DNA of 64,000 bases from positions 868,001-932,000 of the forward strand of contig NZ_CP043178.1 of the NCBI RefSeq assembly GCF_014217545.1. Direction: 5' to 3'. Within the stretch, counting starts at the first letter, position 1. Every line of letters starts with the position of its first letter. Below are positions 24,550 to 39,978 of this stretch, piece after piece. The DNA comes from Pseudarthrobacter sp. NBSH8. Lineage in GTDB: Bacteria > Actinomycetota > Actinomycetes > Actinomycetales > Micrococcaceae. The notes under the pieces are model-generated. The model searched no databases. It was not told where the DNA came from and saw nothing but the letters and a program-made list of their open reading frames with translations. A program made the position numbers and the translations under genes.

Positions 24550-26415
24550 CTACCCGCGTATGGTCTTTGACTGGCGACCACGGGTGAACCCGGTCAGGAG
24601 CGAGTCCCGGAGGCTTTCGCGGGCGTCTTGCCCAGGGACCTCCAATCCGGTCGCATCGGCCGCCATTGCAGCGATCCAGTCGCCGTGGCTTGTGATGTCC
24701 CGGCCAGTGGCGGCAGCCACAGCGTCGCAGGCGAAGCCGACAGCGCGAGTACCGTCTGCCAGACGAACGGAACCCAGGAGCATTGGCTCGGGCAGCGCGG
24801 CCAGGAACCGTCCCAGCGCCGCTTCCGGCAGCAGCCAGCGCTCTGCCACGAGCTCCGCCCCGTCCTCTGACCGGTACACCCCGGGTTTCGGTGGCTGGGT
24901 GTCGAGGGCAACCATGCGGTAGACGGCGGCCGTGCGCACATCCCCGTCCCAGGCGGCACCTAAGGATTCGAGTTCGTGGGCCAGGGGCTGCCCCCGTCGA
25001 TGTGCCCCAACCACGACGAGCGGCTCAGCGGAGGCGCCCGCCCGCACCGGCCATGGTTTCAAGGGGCCGGCCAGGGGCGCCTGGACGGCTCCGGCCGCGA
25101 ACAGGGCCGGTGGGGCAGGCGTTGTTTCGATTCTGCGGGCGATGTCAGCGGCAACCGCATCCTCGAACGTTCGCCCCACAACGGTGAGTCCGAACTGGAA
25201 GCCGTCCAATTCCCCGGCCGGTATGGCGACAGCGCACAGGTCGAAGAGATTGCAGAAGTTGGTGTAGGTCCCCATCTTCGAGTTCACTCCGACAGGGTCG
25301 CGGGCGACGTCCGAGAGGCTCGGGTGGAAAGGTGCTGTGGGGACGATCAGTGCATCGAAGCCCCGCAAGTGCGCCATTGCCTGGTTCTTGAGGTCGTTGA
25401 GCCTGCCGGTATCCGAAACGTACCGGTGGGCAGGGACCTCGCCAGCCCGGAGGACAATTCCGGCCACGGTGGGATCCAACCCGTCAGAATTGCCGGAGTC
25501 CGCGGTAGCCGAGGCAACAAATGCTCCGATTGCGGCATAGCGCTCAGCCACCAGACCGCCGTCATACAGCAGGCGCGCGGCCTCAAGGAAGTCGTTGAAC
25601 TCGATCGGCTCCGCATCCACTCCCGAAGCCTGAATCCTGGCAATCTGGCGGCCGAATTCATCAGCCCAATCTTGCGGAAGTTCCGGCAATGCCGATGGAT
25701 AGGCAACTCGTGGCCGGGCCGGTGCGGCAAGCTTGGCGTCCGACGGCCAGGTTCGTGCGTTCCCCGCCATGGTTCCCATGGCCAGTTCGGCTGTCGCCAG
25801 GTCCCGGGCGAACACGGTGACGGCGTCCCACGAGCGGCACGCCGGAACTACTCCGGCGGTGGAAACCACGTTGAGTGTGGCCTTGATGCCCACAATCCCC
25901 TGAAGTCCGGCGGGTACCCGTCCCGAGCCTGCGGTGTCCGTGCCGATCGCAACATCGGCGAGCCCCAGGGCCACTGCGACGGCGGAGCCTGAACTGGAAC
26001 CGCCGGAAATATGGTCGGGCCGGCGGGAATCGCGGACGGCTCCGTGTGGGCTTCGCGTCCCTACCAGCCCGGTGGCGAACTGGTCCAGGTTGGTGGCGCC
26101 GAGAACCACGGCCCCGGCCGCCCGCAGCCGGGCTACGGCCTCGGCGTCCTGCTCCGGCATGTAGGCGAACCCGGGACATGCCGCCGTGGTGCTGATCCCC
26201 GCCACGTCAACGTTGTTCTTCACGGCAAGGAGCATTCCGGCCAGGGGGAGGTCCGCGCCGGCGGCCACTGCAGTGTCGATACGGCCGGCCTCCGCCAGGA
26301 GCTGATCCGCCGGGCGCAGGGCAATCCAAATTTCCGGCCGGTCGACGGCGTCAATGGCGGCCAGTGCTGCTCTCACACGCTCGGTGGCGCATCGGCTTGC
26401 GGGTACGGTGCTCAT
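24550..26415 (-). CDS. atzF: Allophanate hydrolase
   Basis: A 621-residue amidase-signature enzyme. The Ser-cisSer-Lys triad is visible: Lys66 in LLAVKNNVDVAG, SGGSSSGSAVAVA (Ser140-142) and DTAGSGRVPAG (Ser164). After about residue 465 comes the C-terminal domain peculiar to allophanate hydrolases (LVVVGAHRRGQPLAHELESLG; later RAVGFACD). It converts allophanate to ammonia and CO2, the last step of urea or guanidine carboxylation pathways. The start at 26415 overlaps the carboxylase stop (ATGA), removing a 49-codon unrelated upstream extension. It is the last gene of the operon 33290-24550. Confidence 0.92.
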   Translation of the reverse strand: MSTVPASRCATERVRAALAAIDAVDRPEIWIALRPADQLLAEAGRIDTAVAAGADLPLAGMLLAVKNNVDVAGISTTAACPGFAYMPEQDAEAVARLRAAGAVVLGATNLDQFATGLVGTRSPHGAVRDSRRPDHISGGSSSGSAVAVALGLADVAIGTDTAGSGRVPAGLQGIVGIKATLNVVSTAGVVPACRSWDAVTVFARDLATAELAMGTMAGNARTWPSDAKLAAPARPRVAYPSALPELPQDWADEFGRQIARIQASGVDAEPIEFNDFLEAARLLYDGGLVAERYAAIGAFVASATADSGNSDGLDPTVAGIVLRAGEVPAHRYVSDTGRLNDLKNQAMAHLRGFDALIVPTAPFHPSLSDVARDPVGVNSKMGTYTNFCNLFDLCAVAIPAGELDGFQFGLTVVGRTFEDAVAADIARRIETTPAPPALFAAGAVQAPLAGPLKPWPVRAGASAEPLVVVGAHRRGQPLAHELESLGAAWDGDVRTAAVYRMVALDTQPPKPGVYRSEDGAELVAERWLLPEAALGRFLAALPEPMLLGSVRLADGTRAVGFACDAVAAATGRDITSHGDWIAAMAADATGLEVPGQDARESLRDSLLTGFTRGRQSKTIRG

Positions 26416-29400
26416 GCTGCAGCCTCTTCCAGTTCGTCGCTGTCCACATCGGAGTGCCCGGTTGCGTTCTGGTCCACCGGTGGAGCAATGACCACGAGAG
26501 CCTCGCCTTGCACTACCTGGGAACCTGCCACAGGCAGTACCTGCTGGACCACGCCGTCGCACGGGGCAACCAGCACCGTTTCCATTTTCATGGCCTCCAG
26601 CGAAACCAGCGGCTGGTCTTTGGAGACCCGGTCACCGGGGGCCACGTCCACCTTCCACACGCTCGCGGCGAAAGGCGAGGCAACCAGCGTTCCTCCCTCG
26701 GGAACCACCAGCTCTTCAGCGACCGGAACTATGGCGGCTGCTGCGTCGGCGCGGTCAAACTCACCGGCGTCGGCCCACGCTTGGCGTTCGACGGCGAACG
26801 CTGCCGCCTGCTTCGCGCGGAACGCGTCGATCGAGTCGCTGTTCCGGGCAAGGAAGTCCTCATGGTCCGCCAAGGAGAAGGTGCCCTCTTCGATCTCCAC
26901 TCCGCGGCCCCGGCCCGCGGCCATGTCGGCCCGCAGGTCCAACAGTTCTTCGGGGCTGACCGGGTACCAGGAGATGCGGTCAAAGAACCGCAGCAGCCAG
27001 GGCGAACCGGCCTCGAACGGCGCGGAATCGGCGTAACGGGACCAGACCTGGGTGGTCCGGCCGACGAATTGGTAGCCCCCGGGTCCTTCCATGCCGTAGA
27101 TGCACATGTAGGCTCCACCAATTCCCACGGCGTTTTCCGGTGTCCAGGTCCGGGCGGGGTTGTATTTGGTGGTCACCAGACGGTGGCGGGGGTCCAGCGG
27201 TGTAGCTACCGGGGCGCCAAGATAGACATCGCCAAGGCCGAGGACCAGGTATTCGGCGTTGAAGACCGTGTCAAAGACCTCGTTCACAGAGTCCAGGCCG
27301 TTGATGCGCCTGATGAATTCGATATTCCACGGGCACCAGGGGGCGTCGTCCCGGACACCGGCCATGTAGCGCTGGATGGCTTCGCGCGTGGCCGGGTCAT
27401 CCCAGGACAGCGGAAGACGGACGGTGCGGCTGGGCACCACCAGCTCTGAACTTGCCGGCAGGGCAGCCTCGACTTCCTGCATCAGGCCCAACAGCTTCGG
27501 GGTCGGAAGCACCGAAGGGTCGGCCTTGATCTGCAGGGAACGGATGCCGGGGGTGAGGTCAACGATCCCAGGCAAGCGGAGCCCTGCAATGTGCTGGTGC
27601 AGGGCGTGCACACGGGCCCTCAGGCTGAGATCAAGGACCATGTCGCCATATTCGACCAGCAGGTTGTCGTCCCCCGAGCGGCGATACGTGACAGCAGGCC
27701 GGCCAGGGGCCTGGGGCACCCGTCCCAGCACGCCGTCGTCGCCATCTCCTCGACGGAGACCGGGGGCTGACACCGCCCCGGATGCCCAGCCGTGATCGCC
27801 GGGCAGCACCAACTGCCGGGCGGGACCCAGATCCTTGGCCGACGGCGCCCGGTTGGCTTCTACCGGCACGAAGCGGACGGAGTCGCCGGGGCGGAGCTGG
27901 CCCAGCTTCCAGCGGTCGGCCGTCACCACGGTCACAGGGCAGACGAAGCCGCCCAGGCTGGGACCGTCCGGTCCCAGCAGGATCGGAGTGTCACCGGTGA
28001 AGTCCAGGGCACCTACCGAATAGGCAGTGTCGTGAATATTTGACGGGTGCAGTCCCGCCTCGCCGCCGTCAGTGCGGGCCCACCGCGGTTTGGGGCCGAT
28101 GAGGCGGACCCCCGTGCGGGCTGAGTTGAAGTGCACTTCGTAACTGGCGGCGTAAAGATCCTCGATGTCCTCGCGCTGGAAGAACTCGGGTGCGCCGTGC
28201 GGGCCTTCCACCACAGTCAACTCCCACTCGGACGTCAATACCGGCCTGCTGTCCAGGGGAACCGGGCCGGCCGGGGCCTCTACCGGCCGGCCAGCCGGCA
28301 ACGAACCTTCAACGGTCCCGGGTGTCCCGGCCCGCAGCACGTCGCCGGACCTGAGTACGCGCCCGCCGTGTCCGCCGAACTGGCCCAGGGTGAAGGTGGA
28401 CGCGCTGCCCAGGTATTGCGGAACGTCGAGTCCGCCCTGGAACAGGATGTAGCCGCGGAGGCCGGACCCGTCAGCGGTGCCGACGTCGAGGGTGCCACCC
28501 GCGGGCACTGTCACCGGTTCCCAGGCGGGAACTTTTGCTCCGTCCACGGTGAGCATGGTGGGGGCGCCTGCGACGCACACCGTTGTGGCATGCGTGAACG
28601 TCAGGGTGGGCCCCGTCATGGTGAACTCGAGCCCGGGTGCGCCTTCGGCGTTGCCGAGTGCCCGGTTGCCGAGCCGGAAGGACAGATCATCCATCGGGCC
28701 GCTGGGCGGAACGCCTACCTGCCACAACCCTGCACGGCCCGGCCAGTCCTGCACCGAGGTCTGCAGCCCGGGCCGTCCCACGGTGATCCGCGGTTCCGGA
28801 TCGCCCAGGTCATTCAGGGTGCCGGTGGAGTGGGCCGCGTCGCGGACCACGTCCAGGGCCGTGACGGCCCTGAGCATCCCGAGGTTCGTCTCGATGCCGT
28901 CGATCCGGGTGGCCTTCAGTGCTGCGCCGAGCCGGTCGAAGGCCTGGTTCCGGTCCGTGCCGGTGGTGATGATTTTGGCCAGGAGCGGATCGTAGTTGGT
29001 GGACACCTCGCTGCCGGTTTCCACCCAGGCGTCCACCCGCACCCCATCTGTGACGGGGTAGACGGCGTTGGTCACCGTTCCGGAACTCGGCTGGAAGTTG
29101 CGCGCCGGGTCCTCGGCATAAAGGCGGGCTTCGACGGCGTACCCGGATACCGGGATGCTGTCCGGACGCCCGGCCAGCAGACCGGCTGCCTCCTCGCCGC
29201 CCTGGGCCAGCCGAAGCATCCATGCCACCAGGTCCACGCCCGTGACAGCCTCTGTCACGGGGTGTTCAACCTGGAGCCGGGCGTTGACCTCAAGGAATGA
29301 GGCCTCCTTCCGGACGGGGTCGTAGACGAACTCCACGGTCCCGGCCGAGCGGTAGTCCAGCGACCCGCAGAGTGCCCGCGAACTGCGGTGCAGTTCATCC

Positions 29401-30158
29401 CGGAGGGCCTCGGGCAGATCGGGTGCGGGCGCTTCCTCCAGCACCTTTTGGTGGCGGCGCTGAAGTGAGCAGTCCCGGTCACCCAGGCTCACCACCCGGC
29501 CATCGCCGTCACCGAAGATCTGGACTTCCACATGCCGGGCATGTTCAACGTATCGTTCGGCGAAAACGCCGGCGGTGCTGAAGCTCGCGCCGGCCAGGCG
29601 GGCCACGCGTGGGAAGCTTTCGGCGAGCTCGTCCTCGGTGCGGCATACCGTCATCCCGATGCCGCCGCCACCGCCTGTGGCTTTGAGCATAAGCGGGAAT
29701 CCGATCTCCCGTGCGGCCAGCACGGCAGCGTCCACGTCCGGAAGCAGGCCGGATCCGGCGATCATCGGCACGCCGGCGGCCCTGGCGGCGTCGCGCGCGG
29801 TGTGCTTGGTGCCGAAGATCCGGAGCTGGTCCGGTGTGGGCCCCACGAAAACCAGCCCGGCGGCCTCCACAGCTTCGGCGAAGCCGGCGTCCTCCGAGAG
29901 GAATCCGTAGCCGGGGTGGATGGCCCCGGCCCCTGTTGCCGCGGCCGCATCCAGCAGGGCCTCGACTTTAAGGTAGGAATCCTTGGCCGGCGCCGGGCCC
30001 AGAAGCACGGCCTCATCCGCCAGCCTGACGTGGCGGGCGCCCCGGTCCGCCTCGGAGAACACGGCCACGGTGCGCAAGCCGATCTTCCGGGCGGATTCGA
30101 TGATGCGGCAGGCGATTTCGCCGCGGTTGGCGATCAGCAGGGTGTCGAAGCGGTTCAC
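26412..30158 (-). CDS. uca: Urea/guanidine carboxylase (biotin-dependent)
   Basis: A 1248-residue biotin enzyme. Order: biotin carboxylase (residues 1-450; ATP-grasp GGGGGIGMTV, EVNARLQVEHPVTE), carboxyltransferase part AHS2 (about 465-790; GLQTSVQDWPGRAGLWQVGV, GPSLGGF), part AHS1 (about 830-1060; GIRSLQIKADPS, CPWNIEFIRRINGL) and a C-terminal biotinyl domain with Lys1191 in EAMKMET. It carboxylates urea or guanidine at ATP cost. Because UAAP1 and UAAP2 genes precede it, guanidine is the likelier natural substrate (established: UAAP proteins form carboxyguanidine deiminase in several bacteria). GTG 30158 overlaps the UAAP2 stop (GTGA). Confidence 0.92.
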   Translation of the reverse strand: MNRFDTLLIANRGEIACRIIESARKIGLRTVAVFSEADRGARHVRLADEAVLLGPAPAKDSYLKVEALLDAAAATGAGAIHPGYGFLSEDAGFAEAVEAAGLVFVGPTPDQLRIFGTKHTARDAARAAGVPMIAGSGLLPDVDAAVLAAREIGFPLMLKATGGGGGIGMTVCRTEDELAESFPRVARLAGASFSTAGVFAERYVEHARHVEVQIFGDGDGRVVSLGDRDCSLQRRHQKVLEEAPAPDLPEALRDELHRSSRALCGSLDYRSAGTVEFVYDPVRKEASFLEVNARLQVEHPVTEAVTGVDLVAWMLRLAQGGEEAAGLLAGRPDSIPVSGYAVEARLYAEDPARNFQPSSGTVTNAVYPVTDGVRVDAWVETGSEVSTNYDPLLAKIITTGTDRNQAFDRLGAALKATRIDGIETNLGMLRAVTALDVVRDAAHSTGTLNDLGDPEPRITVGRPGLQTSVQDWPGRAGLWQVGVPPSGPMDDLSFRLGNRALGNAEGAPGLEFTMTGPTLTFTHATTVCVAGAPTMLTVDGAKVPAWEPVTVPAGGTLDVGTADGSGLRGYILFQGGLDVPQYLGSASTFTLGQFGGHGGRVLRSGDVLRAGTPGTVEGSLPAGRPVEAPAGPVPLDSRPVLTSEWELTVVEGPHGAPEFFQREDIEDLYAASYEVHFNSARTGVRLIGPKPRWARTDGGEAGLHPSNIHDTAYSVGALDFTGDTPILLGPDGPSLGGFVCPVTVVTADRWKLGQLRPGDSVRFVPVEANRAPSAKDLGPARQLVLPGDHGWASGAVSAPGLRRGDGDDGVLGRVPQAPGRPAVTYRRSGDDNLLVEYGDMVLDLSLRARVHALHQHIAGLRLPGIVDLTPGIRSLQIKADPSVLPTPKLLGLMQEVEAALPASSELVVPSRTVRLPLSWDDPATREAIQRYMAGVRDDAPWCPWNIEFIRRINGLDSVNEVFDTVFNAEYLVLGLGDVYLGAPVATPLDPRHRLVTTKYNPARTWTPENAVGIGGAYMCIYGMEGPGGYQFVGRTTQVWSRYADSAPFEAGSPWLLRFFDRISWYPVSPEELLDLRADMAAGRGRGVEIEEGTFSLADHEDFLARNSDSIDAFRAKQAAAFAVERQAWADAGEFDRADAAAAIVPVAEELVVPEGGTLVASPFAASVWKVDVAPGDRVSKDQPLVSLEAMKMETVLVAPCDGVVQQVLPVAGSQVVQGEALVVIAPPVDQNATGHSDVDSDELEEAAA

Positions 30159-30844
30159 AGGGCAGCGTCCGGGCGGGTGACGATCATGCGGACCGGCGTG
30201 GGATTGAACCCGTTGCACGGATTGTTGATCTGAGGGCAGTTGGAAACCAGCACCAGGGTGTCCACTTCAGCCCGGAGGGCCACCCGTTTCCCCGGGGCGG
30301 AGAGACCGTCCACGATCCCGAGGGCTCCGTCCGGATCAACGGGAACGTTCATGAACCAGTTGATGTTGGAGACCAGGTCACGCTTACCGAGTCCCCAGCG
30401 CGAACCTTCGATCAGGAAGTTCTCCACGCAGGCATGCTGTTCACGGGTGTGCTGCCCGTAGCGCAGCGTGTTGGATTCCTGCGAGCAGGCCCCGCCGATG
30501 GTGTCGTGCACGCCAACTTCATCCGCCACCACCGTCATCATCGGCAGGCCGGCGTCGGACCGGAGCACCGAGCCGGTGGTCAGCACGATGGAGCGCTGTG
30601 CGGCGAGGGTGACAGACGCGGAGTAGCGCACCTCCGTGTCGTCTGCCGCGTAGAGCAGGCAGTCCACCGCCTGGTTGCCTTCCAGGTCCACGATGGTCAG
30701 GACGTCCCCGGCGGCCACGACGGCGGACCAGGGTCCGCGTGCTTCGACGTATTCATCCAGGATGACTGCGCCGTCCGCGAGCGCCGCGTCCCTGGCAGTC
30801 GCGGCGGCGGTCGGGGGTGTCAGGGTTTCAGTGGCGGTGTTCAT
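30155..30844 (-). CDS. Urea amidolyase-associated protein 2 / carboxyguanidine deiminase subunit
   Basis: A 229-residue DUF1989-family protein. Family signs are AGDVLTIVDLEGNQAVDCLLY, GACSQESNTLRYG and, near the C-terminus, SNCPQINNPCNGFNPTP, whose cysteines fit a metal site. UAAP1 and UAAP2 together have been shown to deiminate N-carboxyguanidine to allophanate, placing this protein between the carboxylase and the allophanate hydrolase. It overlaps UAAP1 by ATGA at 30841-30844 and the carboxylase by four bases, so the subunits are made from one tightly coupled message. Confidence 0.88.
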   Translation of the reverse strand: MNTATETLTPPTAAATARDAALADGAVILDEYVEARGPWSAVVAAGDVLTIVDLEGNQAVDCLLYAADDTEVRYSASVTLAAQRSIVLTTGSVLRSDAGLPMMTVVADEVGVHDTIGGACSQESNTLRYGQHTREQHACVENFLIEGSRWGLGKRDLVSNINWFMNVPVDPDGALGIVDGLSAPGKRVALRAEVDTLVLVSNCPQINNPCNGFNPTPVRMIVTRPDAAL

Positions 30845-31772: not shown

Positions 31773-33290
31773 TCAGGCTTCGGTGCGGCTGGCCGGGCGG
31801 GCGGCTGAGCGCCGGATCCAGAGTCCGAGGACGAGCACGATGCCAACCATCAACGGCGCGGAGTAGAGGAGGATGCCGTTTTCGCCGGTGGGGTCGTAGA
31901 CCTCGGGCCGCGGCCAGGCGAGATTGACCACCATTACGGCGCCGTAGATCACAGCGAGGATGTTGATGGGCAGGCCCCAGCGTCCCAGTGAGAACAGCCC
32001 GGCCGGCATGGTCTGGCCCACCTGATCCCAGTCGCCGCGGAGCCGGTTGAGGAGCTGCGGCACGGTGACCAGGAGGTAGGCGACGTACACCATGACGATG
32101 CAGACACTGGTGAGGGTGGTGAAGAGGGCGGCGTTGCCGACGTTGATGGCGAGCACACCAACGGCCAGGGCTCCGATGGCGATGGAGGGCCACATCGGAG
32201 TGCCGCGGGTGGGGTGGACGGAGGAGAGCAGGGCGGAGGCGGGGAGTTTGCCGTCCCGCGCCATGGAGAACACCAGGCGCGATCCGGCCGTCTGGATGGC
32301 GAGGGTGCAGACGAAGATGGCCACGGCCACGTCCACCAGGAGCACTTTGCCCCAGAAGGTGCCGAGGACGGCGGTCAGCACGTAGGGCAGGCCCTCGGTG
32401 GCGAGCCGGCCGTCGTCGAGGCTGGGGGCGGCCATCAGCGCAGTCACGATCATCAGCGCCCCGCCGATGCCGGAGATGATGAGGGCCGAGAGGATGGTGC
32501 GGGGTGCTGTGCGCCGGGGGGACTTTGTCTCCTCGGAGAGCTCGCCCGCGGAGTTGAAGCCCACCATGACGTAGGCGGCCATCAGGCCCGAGACCATAAA
32601 CGCGCCCACAGCGCCGAGGTCGGATCCCGCCATGACGGTGGTGTCCATCACGACGTCGGGTCCGCGCTGGGCGGCGGTGATAAGCGCCAGGATCACGGCG
32701 ACGACGCCGACGATTTCGCAGGTCACGCCCACCGAGTTCACGTGGGCCATCAGCTTGACGCCCAGGGAGTTGATCACGGTGGTGACCACCAGCAGTACGG
32801 CTCCGAGGACGACGGCGTTCGCCGCGCCGGTGGTGGTGTTCAGTGCGGGGTCGCCGCCCACCAGTTGGAATCCGTCCCAGAGCTGGGGCAGTACCACCTG
32901 CATGGCGATGGCCGCTGCGGCGGCGGTGACCACCTGCGCCAGGGCCATGAACCAGCCGGCGAACCAGCCCACCGTCTCGCCGCCCACCCGCCGGGCCCAC
33001 TGGTAGACCGCCCCGGAGAGCGGGTAGCGTGCGGCGAGCTCCGCGAAGTTCAGGGCCACCAGCAGCTGGCCGAGCAGCACCACCGGCCAGGTCCAGAAGA
33101 ACGCCGGACCGGCAAAGGAGTACCCGAACGCGAAGAGTTGGAAGATGGTGGTCAAGATGGAAACGAAGGAGAAGCCTGCCGCGAAGGAGGCATACCGGCC
33201 CAGCTTGCGGTGCAGGGACGGCTCGTAGCCAAGCGACGTGAGATCGGCATCATCGGTCTGGGCGGATGAGGGAAGAACAGTAGATGTCAT
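31773..33290 (-). CDS. APC-superfamily permease of the guanidine/urea operon
   Basis: A 505-residue amino acid/polyamine/organocation permease with 12 hydrophobic segments. The conserved early parts are ELAARYPLSGAVYQWARRVGG (first-loop signature) and NSAGELSEETKSPRRTAPR in the middle, as in GABA/choline-type APC carriers. Being the first gene of the UAAP1-UAAP2-carboxylase-hydrolase operon, it most likely imports guanidine or a guanidino/ureido compound; this is inferred from context. Its start faces a TetR regulator across 227 bp. Confidence 0.85.
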   Translation of the reverse strand: MTSTVLPSSAQTDDADLTSLGYEPSLHRKLGRYASFAAGFSFVSILTTIFQLFAFGYSFAGPAFFWTWPVVLLGQLLVALNFAELAARYPLSGAVYQWARRVGGETVGWFAGWFMALAQVVTAAAAAIAMQVVLPQLWDGFQLVGGDPALNTTTGAANAVVLGAVLLVVTTVINSLGVKLMAHVNSVGVTCEIVGVVAVILALITAAQRGPDVVMDTTVMAGSDLGAVGAFMVSGLMAAYVMVGFNSAGELSEETKSPRRTAPRTILSALIISGIGGALMIVTALMAAPSLDDGRLATEGLPYVLTAVLGTFWGKVLLVDVAVAIFVCTLAIQTAGSRLVFSMARDGKLPASALLSSVHPTRGTPMWPSIAIGALAVGVLAINVGNAALFTTLTSVCIVMVYVAYLLVTVPQLLNRLRGDWDQVGQTMPAGLFSLGRWGLPINILAVIYGAVMVVNLAWPRPEVYDPTGENGILLYSAPLMVGIVLVLGLWIRRSAARPASRTEA

Positions 33291-36759: not shown

Positions 36760-39195
36760 TCACCCCGCGGTTGTGGTCGGAACTGGCGTGGGGGCGACCG
36801 GTGCTGGTTGGGTCGGCTCCGTGGTGGGAGCTACTTGCGCTGGGCTGCTTTCCGGTGCCGCCCCGCCGGTGGCAGGCGCCGGGGGAGGGGACGCCGGCGT
36901 CGTCGTTCCGGACGGCAAGGATGCCGGGGCGGTGGTGCCCGACGTGGGCGCGGCGCTTGATCCGGCCGTTGGGCCAGGTGACGGGGTGGTTGTGGGCGGC
37001 GTCGTGGAGGTGCCGGTTCCCTTTGCGGCGCTGGGATCGCTTTGGATGATCTCCTTGATCTGTTCCTTGAACGCGGTAAGGCGCCCCTGGATTTCGGACA
37101 GGGGGACGTTCTGGAGGTTCCGCCCGAACTCGGCAATGTCGGCCCATAGAGCGTTGAGCCTGGCCGTTCCGCCGTCGCTCAGCGGCCCGTCGAGCGTGAG
37201 AACGAGTTGACTGGCCAGTGCGTATGTCAGGCAGCGGAGGCAGTTGTAGTTAGCGGCTGCGGACAGATTCTCCGGCACGATCACATTGGCCTGACCCACG
37301 ATGAGCACCACCTGGAAGCCCACGGCCACGGCGGCGCAGTCGGCGCAGCTGGCGAACGCGTAGGCCTCGTTGGTGGTGTCCACGGGTTCGCCGTCTACGG
37401 CCCACACCAGCGCGAAGGCGACGTCGTAGACCACGGAGCCGTCCGTGGTGTTCACCGCCAGAGCCTGGTTCCCGTCCTGCTCCGGGGCGGCGGGCTGGTT
37501 GAACGGGAATACCCACGACGGCGCCGCGGCGGAACCGGCCGTCGTGCCGGGCGCTGTCCCGGCCCCCGCAGGAGCGCTGCGGGGCACCAGGACCGTGCTG
37601 AGCTGCGGGTTTTCCCGCGTCGGCTTCGCTGCTCCTGCGGGCAACAGGGCCACCGTCTTCCCGGTCCCGCCTTCCCGCAGGGCGGAGTACGCCGCCGTCG
37701 GAAATACGGCTGTGGTGACGTCGGCCAAAGTGCCGCGTTCGTACGGCTGCACCGGCCGGTAGGTGTCTGCTCCGGGCCACCAGGCCCAGGCCAGCCCGGC
37801 GGTCACCGCTGCGATGGCGGCCATCGCTACGGCCCGCTGCAGCGTCTTGCCGCGGGTCCGCTGCCAAAGTCCGGTGGTCAGCTGCCGGACCAACCGGAGC
37901 AGGATGTAGCCAACGCCCAGGATAGGAAGTACGACGGCGGCGATCGCCAGGGTGCGCACCGCGGCTCCGGCGATGTCCCCGGCCGCCAGGCTTTCGGACA
38001 ATTCCGACTGCTGTTTCAGGACGCTGGCCCATGCCGTGCCCAGGAGCCGCGGCAGCGAGAGGACCATCATGACCAGGCTAAGTACCAGCAGTGGCACCGT
38101 GACCAGCACCCAGACCGTGACCACTGCCCGTGCCCATGGCTTGAGCGCCTGGGCTGCGGGGTCCGTCCGGCGCCACGGCAGCAGCCCCAGCAGGGTCGGT
38201 TTGATGCGCTGGAAGAGGTCCGGAACACCGGTGGCGTCGGCCAGGATGTGGTAACCGTCAAACCGCACCAACGGAAGCAGCTGCCGGATCATCTGGAGAA
38301 TTTGGGTGACCACCACCAGCAACAGGGCGTCAAAGCCGGTGGCCCACCAGACACCCATGATGGCCACGGCCACCATCGCGTTGAAGTACAGCCCGCCCAG
38401 GTCGGTGCGGAGCCTGCCGCCCCGGCCCAAGCGGTAGGAGTCGGTGACATCGGTGAAAAACGCGGGCCAGATCAGGTAGAGGCCGGCGCCCATGGCTCCC
38501 GGTGTTGCGCCGCCACGGCGTGCGGCGGCAGCGTGGCCGAACTCGTGGAAACCCGCGGACAGGACAGTCACGGCCAGGACCAGCAGCACAAGGGCCGGGT
38601 TGGCGAACGCGTCGTGGGTTGCGGAGGCGAGGCCCTTGACCATGAGCACCCACCAGCACGCGGCGATGAAGGCTACGCACACAGCCGCCACGATGAGCGG
38701 GTTGAAGAGCACCGCGAACGGAGCCGTGAGCTTGCGGGTACGCTCCGGATCCGTCACGGTGTAGCGGAAGCGCATGCCCAGCAAGGGGTCGGCTTTCTTC
38801 ACCTCTGGCTGTGAACCGTCGGCCAGCCGGAGCAGCCCCAGCGGCAGGAGCTGGGATGTGATCAGTGTGCGGACGTTGTCCGCGCTGACCAACTTTCCGA
38901 AGCGGGCGCTGGCGTGGGCGGCGATCTGCTCTGTGGTCCGCTGGCCGTCTGTTGCCTCCAGCACCAGGTACAGCAGGCGTGTCAGCTGGATGGCCTGGCC
39001 ATCTGCCCTGCGGACCAGCGAGGGCGGCTCACGATATCCCGAACCCTTCGGTTCACCGAGCAGTTCAACGCCATGGGCCCGCGCGGGAACGTCGGGCAGG
39101 CGGGAGGCCGGCGGGCCGACGCCTATAGCCGTAGCGGGGGCAGGAGAAGCCGGCGGGCCGTCCATCCTGGGCGGCCCGCCGTGCACTGTACTCAT
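36760..39195 (-). CDS. RRE-like (PqqD-type) domain fused to M50/YydH-type membrane zinc metalloprotease
   Basis: An 811-residue protein. Residues about 45-125 resemble a PqqD-like RiPP recognition element (SLVRRADGQAIQLTRLLYLV ... ISSQLLPLGLL type). Then comes a multi-span peptidase of the M50 peptide zinc metalloprotease (YydH-like) kind: HEFGH at residues 217-221 and the third ligand in VRFDGYHILAD (Asp313). Further membrane spans run to about residue 490; beyond this lies an outside domain with paired cysteines (CADC, CLRC) and a Pro/Thr/Ser-rich tail of about 90 residues, likely wall-spanning. It follows the repeat-protein gene by 33 bp on the same strand. Role suggested: recognise and process the partner peptide during export. 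Confidence 0.75.
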   Translation of the reverse strand: MSTVHGGPPRMDGPPASPAPATAIGVGPPASRLPDVPARAHGVELLGEPKGSGYREPPSLVRRADGQAIQLTRLLYLVLEATDGQRTTEQIAAHASARFGKLVSADNVRTLITSQLLPLGLLRLADGSQPEVKKADPLLGMRFRYTVTDPERTRKLTAPFAVLFNPLIVAAVCVAFIAACWWVLMVKGLASATHDAFANPALVLLVLAVTVLSAGFHEFGHAAAARRGGATPGAMGAGLYLIWPAFFTDVTDSYRLGRGGRLRTDLGGLYFNAMVAVAIMGVWWATGFDALLLVVVTQILQMIRQLLPLVRFDGYHILADATGVPDLFQRIKPTLLGLLPWRRTDPAAQALKPWARAVVTVWVLVTVPLLVLSLVMMVLSLPRLLGTAWASVLKQQSELSESLAAGDIAGAAVRTLAIAAVVLPILGVGYILLRLVRQLTTGLWQRTRGKTLQRAVAMAAIAAVTAGLAWAWWPGADTYRPVQPYERGTLADVTTAVFPTAAYSALREGGTGKTVALLPAGAAKPTRENPQLSTVLVPRSAPAGAGTAPGTTAGSAAAPSWVFPFNQPAAPEQDGNQALAVNTTDGSVVYDVAFALVWAVDGEPVDTTNEAYAFASCADCAAVAVGFQVVLIVGQANVIVPENLSAAANYNCLRCLTYALASQLVLTLDGPLSDGGTARLNALWADIAEFGRNLQNVPLSEIQGRLTAFKEQIKEIIQSDPSAAKGTGTSTTPPTTTPSPGPTAGSSAAPTSGTTAPASLPSGTTTPASPPPAPATGGAAPESSPAQVAPTTEPTQPAPVAPTPVPTTTAG

Positions 39196-39228
39196 CTAGG
39201 TGTGCTCACGTGGGAGGTGGCGTCCGGA

Positions 39229-39930
39229 CTACTGCCGGAGATCGGACTGCTGGTCGGCGGAGGCGGTGGCTTCGCCGTCGATGTGCTGGCTGATGATGGC
39301 GTCCTGCTGGGCCACGGCGAAAGCGTTGCTGTCGATGGAGCCGATGTTCGCCGCAACGGCCGCGTCGATCGGTGCGGCAACGTTGGCGTTGGCAGCAACG
39401 GCGCCGTTGATCGGGGCCGCGATGTCCGCCTGGGCGGCAAGGTCCACATTGACGTTCAGGAGGTTTCCGTCCAGGGCCGCGGAAGGATCCACCGGCAGGG
39501 CGCCGACATCTGAAGCGGGATCTCCGGGCAGGAGGCCGCCGTCGGCGGTGCCGCCTGCGGGGGTGCTGCTGTCCGCGGTTCCGTCCCCATCGGCGGCCGG
39601 GTCGGCGCCCTGGTCAATGGTGCTGTCCTGGGTGGAGTCGGCTGTGGCATCCGCGGTGATGCCCTGGTCGATGATGACTCCCTGGTCAGCAAGGGCCTGG
39701 GCCTGGGATCCGAAGGAGAGGATGTTGGCGGAGGCAGCCGCGTCGATCGGGGCTGCGACGTTGGCATTGGCCGCGACTGCGAGATCGATGGGTGCCGCGG
39801 CGTTGATGCCCAGGTCCAAATCAGCATTCAGGTCCAGGACGGAGGCCACTTCCTTGTCGGGGAGCGCCGTGCCGCCTTGTGCCATCAGTTCTTCGTCGCT
39901 CAGCGGGTTTAGTCCCTGTTCAGTGCTCAT
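39229..39930 (-). CDS. Cysteine-free internally repeated protein, possible substrate of the M50 protease
   Basis: A 233-residue acidic, Ala/Asp-rich protein without signal peptide or cysteine. A leader-like N-terminus (MSTEQGLNPLSDEELMAQGG, then LPDKEVASVLDLNADLDL) precedes a 25-residue repeat found twice, at residues 46-70 and 172-196 (core AVAANANVAAPIDAA); each copy is followed by a Gln/Asp-rich segment (ADQGVIIDQGITADATADS and AQQDAIISQHIDGEATASAD). The leader followed by low-complexity modules recalls a precursor peptide, but it is much larger than normal RiPP precursors. GGAG lies 7 nt upstream of ATG 39930. It is the first gene of the two-gene unit. Confidence 0.75.
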   Translation of the reverse strand: MSTEQGLNPLSDEELMAQGGTALPDKEVASVLDLNADLDLGINAAAPIDLAVAANANVAAPIDAAASANILSFGSQAQALADQGVIIDQGITADATADSTQDSTIDQGADPAADGDGTADSSTPAGGTADGGLLPGDPASDVGALPVDPSAALDGNLLNVNVDLAAQADIAAPINGAVAANANVAAPIDAAVAANIGSIDSNAFAVAQQDAIISQHIDGEATASADQQSDLRQ

Positions 39931-39978
39931 GCGAAACTCCATCTCCGGCACGGTCGTCGCTGCCCCCAGTGAGCAGTT

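Follow-up and report, generated by a model that had tools for sequence, protein, structure and literature searches.

The closest described relatives of the system analysed here are the daptide and epipeptide pathways. Available excerpts of PMC10036551 describe the daptide protease MpaP as an intramembrane peptidase that removes the leader in dependence on an RRE, the recognition element of ribosomally synthesized and post-translationally modified peptides (RiPPs), and describe daptides as haemolytic. Excerpts of PMC10885120 and PMC7026026 likewise treat the M50 protease of epipeptides as a processing and release device: EpeP is thought to cleave and export the epipeptide, and YydH to release its peptide through or with the protease. 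Here we analyse a 64,000-nucleotide stretch of Pseudarthrobacter sp. NBSH8 (contig NZ_CP043178.1, positions 868,001 to 932,000; hereafter the window) in which a repeat protein is encoded directly ahead of an RRE-like/M50 membrane protease. We propose that the two genes form a leader-guided pathway that matures and releases unmodified, β-arch-forming surface peptides, which probably self-assemble; to this reading we assign a probability of roughly 55%. RRE-guided maturation by M50 proteases is already known; here none of the usual modification enzymes was found among the neighbours scanned.

A conserved pair with a shared leader

Both genes, and every feature located below, lie on the minus strand of the window. 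The precursor (the repeat protein, 233 amino acids) occupies positions 39229..39930, with an in-frame GTG at 39951 as an alternative start, and is followed after a gap of 33 bp by the 811-residue protease with its ectodomain (36760..39195), assigned from Pfam and NCBIfam scores, relatives and an AlphaFold2 model. An earlier note, made from the letters of the window, had given the same positions and spacing and had called the repeat protein cysteine-free, correctly so, as there is no Cys among its 233 residues. Each gene has a single match in the 4.06-Mb genome. The closest named relatives of the protease are Pseudarthrobacter proteins (97% and 96%); its relatives number at least 4454, and those of the precursor at least 3690 at an expectation value (E) ≤ 1e-3 among 8000 scored.

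Loci of relatives were fetched through the protease alone, none being picked for its precursors. The 20 actinobacterial loci comprise two Streptomyces plasmids and 18 loci from a genome scan, the latter representing a sample. They derive from Streptomyces, Actinacidiphila, Streptacidiphilus, Micrococcaceae, Nocardioidaceae, Saccharothrix, Phycicoccus, Mycobacterium and Frankia and, as metagenome-derived sequences, from Frankiales, Streptosporangiaceae, Acidimicrobiaceae, Thermoleophilia and an unplaced actinobacterium. In all 20, between one and four leader-bearing precursors stand directly upstream of the protease (31 precursors in all; 7 of the 20 loci have two to four). The last precursor ends from 4 bp inside to 370 bp ahead of the called protease start in 18 of the 19 loci measured; the called start in L016 is unreliable for this distance. 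Approached from the repeat protein, the protease adjoins it in all eight same-genus genomes that carry it. Co-occurrence of the two genes, named beforehand as a test of the pairing, thus extends to every protease-anchored locus and every repeat-protein genome of the genus. Within the genus the system is patchy, the repeat protein being missing from 5 of 13 genomes (G004, G005, G008, G009 and G012); it is also missing from all six sampled genomes of other genera in the order. It has no match among PLSDB plasmids. A viral origin was rejected, no relative of precursor or protease being confirmed in IMG/VR.

The precursors share an N-terminal leader, which in the window spans residues 1-30 (39841..39930; LSDEELMAQGGTALPDKEVAS). 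The pattern E-L ... [GA]-[ET]-x-L-P-x-[RK]-[EA] is common to the 31 precursors of the 20 loci and the cores behind it vary, the arrangement of conserved leader and variable core that characterizes RiPP pathways; the leader-like N-terminus that the earlier note had noticed is therefore real, and leader recognition is supported because one leader precedes unlike cores. With 32 leaders, the window's among them, set ungapped on L-P-x-[RK], position -13 is Leu, Met, Ile or Val in 31 of 32, position -9 is E in 26, position -8 is L or I in 31 and position -3 is G or A in 29; position +3 (R or K) and position +7 (S, G or A) hold in all 32.

Leader profiles, whose training stretches also take in the first residues past the leader, connect precursors across these groups. 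A profile of the L005 and L007 leaders gave 16 non-training matches at E ≤ 2 among 4748 six-frame open reading frames (ORFs), all of them precursors (best E 1e-4; window precursor E 0.017), and a profile of 18 Micrococcaceae leaders matched the remaining large proteins and the four L005 precursors (E 2.6e-6 to 0.019). The Streptomyces profile was weaker, reaching L005 at E 0.008; its first non-precursor, from L024 at E 0.38, outranked some of the true precursors. When the whole group was left out of training, precursors outranked all other ORFs in 11 of 11 short-precursor loci; the large-protein group connects through the L005/L007 profiles and through the core. In the non-actinobacterial loci L022-L027 (23-30% identity), covered by profile scan alone with no reading by hand, leader matches were no better than E 0.38.

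We take the leader string L-[ST]-x-x-E-L-x-x-x-x-G-x to resemble a double-glycine leader of the ComC type; GG is present in two L007 precursors, and one precursor gives a weak ComC match (E 0.12). The leaders analysed here differ from it in mostly having GE, GT or AE in place of GG, in their extra LPxRE block and in having no shared C39 exporter. No Pfam or NCBIfam family (11 precursors scanned with each) matched the precursors beyond noise, barring repeats in the linker of L012. Among the 120 short precursors listed, those with names are called hypothetical or uncharacterized, except for the UniRef names FXSXX-COOH protein (four) and predicted peroxiredoxin (two); the Micrococcaceae repeat proteins are named peptidoglycan-binding protein by NCBI, a name for which no Pfam basis was found. 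Searches of the open-licence literature in PubMed Central (PMC) found no description of the gene pair or the leader strings, and the available excerpts of a 2025 RRE survey (PMC12710340) do not mention the system.

The protease and its CxxC ectodomain

The PqqD-like domain that the earlier note saw in the protease (residues 44-120; 38836..39066) was examined by segment profile matches and AlphaFold2, a match to RRE/PqqD having been named beforehand as a further test. Scanned alone, N-terminal segments of the proteases match Pfam PqqD in 6 of 18 cases (best E 7e-5) and the winged-helix family PKMT_2nd in 6 of 18 (best E 7e-4); the window's own segment matches neither PKMT_2nd nor, even at E 1, PqqD. 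The PqqD structure 3g2b matches weakly by profile (E 0.22) and ranks under five TAB1-type chains, none of which passes on any single stretch. In the AlphaFold2 model, residues 44-116 form three strands and then three helices, the order of the PqqD fold that defines an RRE, with predicted local distance difference test (pLDDT) values of 75-94 for these blocks. The domain is thus present, weakly by sequence and clearly in the strand-helix order of the model. Behind it, the membrane region (residues 150-470; 37786..38748), evident from hydropathy and long model helices, contains the HEFGH zinc site (residues 217-221; 38533..38547) and the third metal ligand site DGY (RFDGY, D313; residues 313-315; 38251..38259); the earlier note had read HEFGH, a D-G-Y metal site and the membrane spans. 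HEFGH-type and RFDGY-type motifs recur in all 20 relatives' loci, so HExxH and [ND]-G in membrane helices, the signature of M50/site-2-type proteases, are found throughout; the Pfam M50 score of the window protease is 11.3 bits, below the cutoff of 27.2.

Judged from profile scores and homology, the protease is kin to MpaP and YydH/EpeP and a member of neither family. It scores 102.8 bits against the NCBIfam MpaP family (NF041824; cutoff 300), for which Streptomyces relatives reach 77 and 83.8 bits, and 32.6 bits against the LiaK family (NF058609, YydH/EpeP; cutoff 225). The likeness to daptides is substantial: an RRE is joined to an intramembrane M50 protease, the protease domains are homologous (hhalign probability 99) and up to four small precursors stand directly upstream (L028 and L029). 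However, MpaP lies far off on the protease tree, and the leader and core of the window system are unlike daptide precursors. Daptide membership was rejected on the NF041824 score and on the absence of mpaB, mpaC, mpaD and mpaM, and with them of a decarboxylase, aminotransferase and methyltransferase, from the ten window neighbours scanned, none of these genes being shared in the 20 loci; the window precursor moreover ends in SDLRQ, not in the C-terminal Thr that is modified in daptide precursors. Epipeptide membership was likewise rejected, with a score below the NF058609 cutoff and no radical SAM epimerase among those ten neighbours or shared by the loci; the precursor also differs from that of epipeptides. 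As separate observations, the Streptomyces plasmids L028 and L029 carry complete daptide gene sets, with mpaB, M, D, C and mpaP and four precursors, adjoining annotated lanKC, YcaO-like genes and an ATP-binding cassette (ABC) transporter. Plasmid genes annotated as HlyD-family adaptors (L030 and similar, from Escherichia, Citrobacter and Hafnia) are 32% matches to the M50 domain of P0246, the L030 gene adjoining TolC and adaptor genes.

The ectodomain (residues 480-720; 37036..37758) contains two nearly invariant CxxC pairs spaced by 35 residues, C617/C620 (37336..37347) and C652/C655 (37231..37242), and is followed by a Thr/Pro/Ala-rich tail (residues 721-811; 36763..37035) recognized by composition and low pLDDT, in agreement with the outside CxxC-pair domain and Thr/Pro tail described earlier. 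In the Streptomyces locus L002 the same domain is encoded by a separate gene after the protease, P0244 (30% over 143 amino acids, E 8e-10), and the outside location is supported because this copy starts, as judged by eye, with a signal-peptide-like N-terminus. The ectodomain was detected in 16 of 19 assessable loci, a count that leaves aside L015, where the contig ends inside the protease. It is fused to the protease in the window and eight loci (L011-L014, L016, L017, L019 and L020) and follows it as a separate gene in eight others (L002, L005-L010 and L021), a distribution that points to the CxxC domain as a component in its own right. Fusion accompanies the large two-unit precursors, and the split between fused and separate forms corresponds to one branch of the protease tree, whose support (89/93) falls short of the strict mark. 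This tree was made without L021 (protease in two frames), L004 and L018 (both of which carry HExxH), and 9 of its 17 inner branches are unresolved. Two loci have unusual arrangements: in Pseudarthrobacter sulfonivorans a second, stand-alone ectodomain (L011:4221-5054) lies upstream of the precursor beside the fused one, and at L021 5041-8468 the protease and ectodomain run in more than one frame, as if broken or with sequencing errors.

Core units and the β-arch pattern

The earlier note described two 25-residue repeats in the precursor; two copies do exist, and the unit is longer. Residues 45-97 align with 171-223 (offset 126) without gaps over 53 residues at a score of 52, against 15 or less in 200 shuffles, and by profile the unit measures 77 residues. 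The note's overall interpretation, a possible peptide-processing system, is partly supported: the pairing, the RRE-like domain and leader recognition speak for it, the repeat length is corrected, and the cutting and delivery to the cell surface that it also proposed stay conjectural. Core and unit hidden Markov models (HMMs) place unit 1 at residues 31-107 (39610..39840) and unit 2 at residues 157-233 (39232..39462), separated by a Gly/Thr/Asp linker (residues 108-156; 39463..39609) whose columns are gapped and variable in two alignments. A profile from eight short cores (L005 and L007) matches all ten large proteins (E 3e-12 to 1e-18; window 5e-13), with two near-full copies in each; two Streptomycetaceae loci follow weakly, and no further ORF falls under a domain E of 1. 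Because the short-core profile matches twice, the window protein can be described as a leader followed by two copies, fused and lengthened, of a unit found singly elsewhere. In the search for short precursors, 7051 of 8000 scored candidates reached E ≤ 0.01, of which the best 120 were viewed. Similar short precursors thus appear to number in the thousands. Two further architectures were observed: a 464-amino-acid precursor (L012:4589-5983) in which the linker between core units is enlarged by β-flower-type (PF21785) and DUF3659 repeats, and seven database proteins of 139-145 amino acids (P0247-P0253) with two leader-plus-core precursors per chain, some of whose joins resemble run-together genes.

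Conservation in the cores follows an alternating pattern. The entropy table was built from 111 of the 120 best Streptomyces-type precursors listed, those with LPGRE and a suitable length, and the alternation test used the 105 that were equally long. In these 105, conserved core positions (A, N, S, Q, I) alternate with free ones: the second strand shows a lag-1 autocorrelation of entropy of -0.86 and a parity contrast of 2.1 bits (p 2e-4) and the first strand p values of 5e-4 to 4e-3. These values come from shuffling columns inside windows that were picked once the entropies had been seen. In 18 large units of nine proteins, the 34 columns after L-S alternate too (0 of 20000 shuffles as extreme). 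Such every-other-residue conservation is a mark of β-strands, and the AlphaFold2 model of the repeat protein contains, at low confidence, strand pairs 76-92/95-106 and 202-218/221-232 that coincide with the alternating segments. Alternation and strand pairs together fit stacked β-arches, and the core unit looks like a β-arch. Cores are rich in Ala, Asn and Gln, and 24 of 31 contain no Cys. We take the likeness to curli and functional amyloids to be one of pattern only, consisting of strand-turn-strand units with alternating conserved Ala/Asn/Ser/Gln/Ile. Curlin membership was rejected, since neither the window precursor nor ten relatives matched at E 10 or better and PDB profiles gave no match; no Csg-type export genes were seen, and the export logic differs.

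A proposed route and its alternatives

Protein anatomy and the behaviour of kin (MpaP and EpeP) suggest how the pair may work. The N-terminal leader of the precursor would dock in the cytosol on the protease's RRE-like domain. The zinc intramembrane site would cut behind the leader; our guess for the position is close to the small residue that follows LPxRE, or else the degenerate [GA][ET] step. The core could then pass outward, either through the protease or together with it, as has been suggested for EpeP and YydH, and the CxxC ectodomain outside would receive it or help to assemble it; cores, with one unit in small precursors and two here, might stack as β-arches into a surface layer or fibre.

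Computation shows the common leader, the constant pairing, the RRE-like domain, the active-site motifs and the homology of core units and of the ectodomain to its stand-alone counterpart; docking, cleavage, export, the ectodomain's role and self-assembly are inferred. Several observations weigh against this proposal. Compared alone with MpaP, the RRE segment is not significant (hhalign probability 7.7%); left-out-group profiles recover the large-protein leader group in 0 of 10 cases at significance; and the ectodomain is undetected in L003, L004 and L018, 3 of the 19 assessable loci. For the β-arch, AlphaFold2 models the repeat protein poorly (pLDDT 53, predicted template modelling score 0.26), the AAPID part of the large units shows no alternation (p about 0.3), the Streptomyces strand windows were picked with the entropies in view, and neither curlin nor another amyloid family matched in Pfam or PDB profiles.

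The surroundings of the pair bear on what else it might be. Eight of the ten neighbouring ORFs scanned in the window gave Pfam matches at E 0.01 and the other two gave none; the matches are to an amino-acid permease, a TetR regulator, a Ser/Thr kinase, a glyoxalase-like protein, an α-amylase and a helix-turn-helix (HTH)/AHSA1 protein, with weak ones to DUF6689 and RibD_C. No RiPP enzyme or exporter occurs among these ten ORFs of the 64-kb window or as a shared neighbour in an all-against-all comparison of the 20 loci, as anticipated by the earlier remark that radical SAM, cyclase and ABC exporter genes are lacking nearby. Beyond precursor, protease and ectodomain, the loci share only few-locus gene sets: an HTH protein (L006, L009 and L010), a sigma-70-type gene (L002, L004 and L010; Pfam for L002), a sensor kinase (L011, L017 and L019), a lipoprotein-like gene without Pfam match (L005 and L007) and an ABC-transporter ATPase (L005 and L009; Pfam) more than 3 kb from the precursors. 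The Pfam scans covered 9 + 10 of 154 listed flank ORFs, several of these being the system's own parts. An 80-amino-acid unannotated protein without Pfam match (L002:4380-4619) recurs in the flanks of five Streptomycetaceae loci (L002, L006, L009, L010 and L021). Elsewhere in the window lie a 1268-amino-acid carboxylase-like ORF, urea-carboxylase-like by eye, with its neighbours (26412-30844), and the amino-acid permease (31773-33290; Pfam).

The cores might instead be unmodified secreted antimicrobial or signalling peptides, freed in active form by the protease of a minimal bacteriocin- or pheromone-like system. The conserved leader, the two to four different precursors at some loci and the kinship of the protease to those of the haemolytic daptides (PMC10036551, in excerpt) and the antimicrobial epipeptide would suit this account. 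We nevertheless consider it unlikely, given that neither an immunity gene nor an ABC exporter gene is common to the loci, that the window core is acidic (isoelectric point 4.05) and that cores of 200-460 amino acids fused from units, with alternating conservation, are more in keeping with a structural polymer. A leader, an RRE-like domain and an M50 protease are also hallmarks of RiPPs, and many RiPP pathways split their genes, which speaks for a true RiPP with its modification enzymes encoded elsewhere in the genome. We give this little credence: no modification enzyme is shared in the 20 loci or present among the ten window neighbours, the rest of the genome lying outside the search, and Ala/Asn/Gln-rich, mostly Cys-free cores fit it poorly. 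M50 proteases are often regulatory, and the upstream protein could be an adaptor, inhibitor or regulatory substrate of a site-2-type protease and not a secreted product; a sigma-70-type gene does flank three loci, and precursor cleavage is itself conjectural. Yet sigma and anti-sigma genes are no general neighbour, one to four variable ORFs with one leader and repeat expansion are unlike an adaptor, and kin proteases act on precursor peptides, leaving a regulatory role very improbable.

The leader-guided release of β-arch peptides, our preferred reading, joins a large set of unannotated small proteins and a membrane-protease family of at least 4454 members into one system with a testable mechanism. 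More tentatively, it is possible that Actinomycetota own a secretion-assembly route for extracellular β-arch (amyloid-like) polymers, in which an RRE-guided intramembrane protease would replace signal peptide and exporter, the CxxC ectodomain would act as outside assembly factor and RiPP parts would yield a curli-like function; precursors in Streptomyces and Arthrobacter relatives, as yet unrecognised, would then number in the thousands. For genome mining, the pair cautions against assuming a modified product wherever an RRE-M50 gene adjoins leader peptides. If the proposed pathway is true, it would offer a two- or three-gene unit in which to study export by M50 proteases, a matter unsettled for epipeptides, and RRE-guided intramembrane proteolysis would make surface material besides small peptide products.

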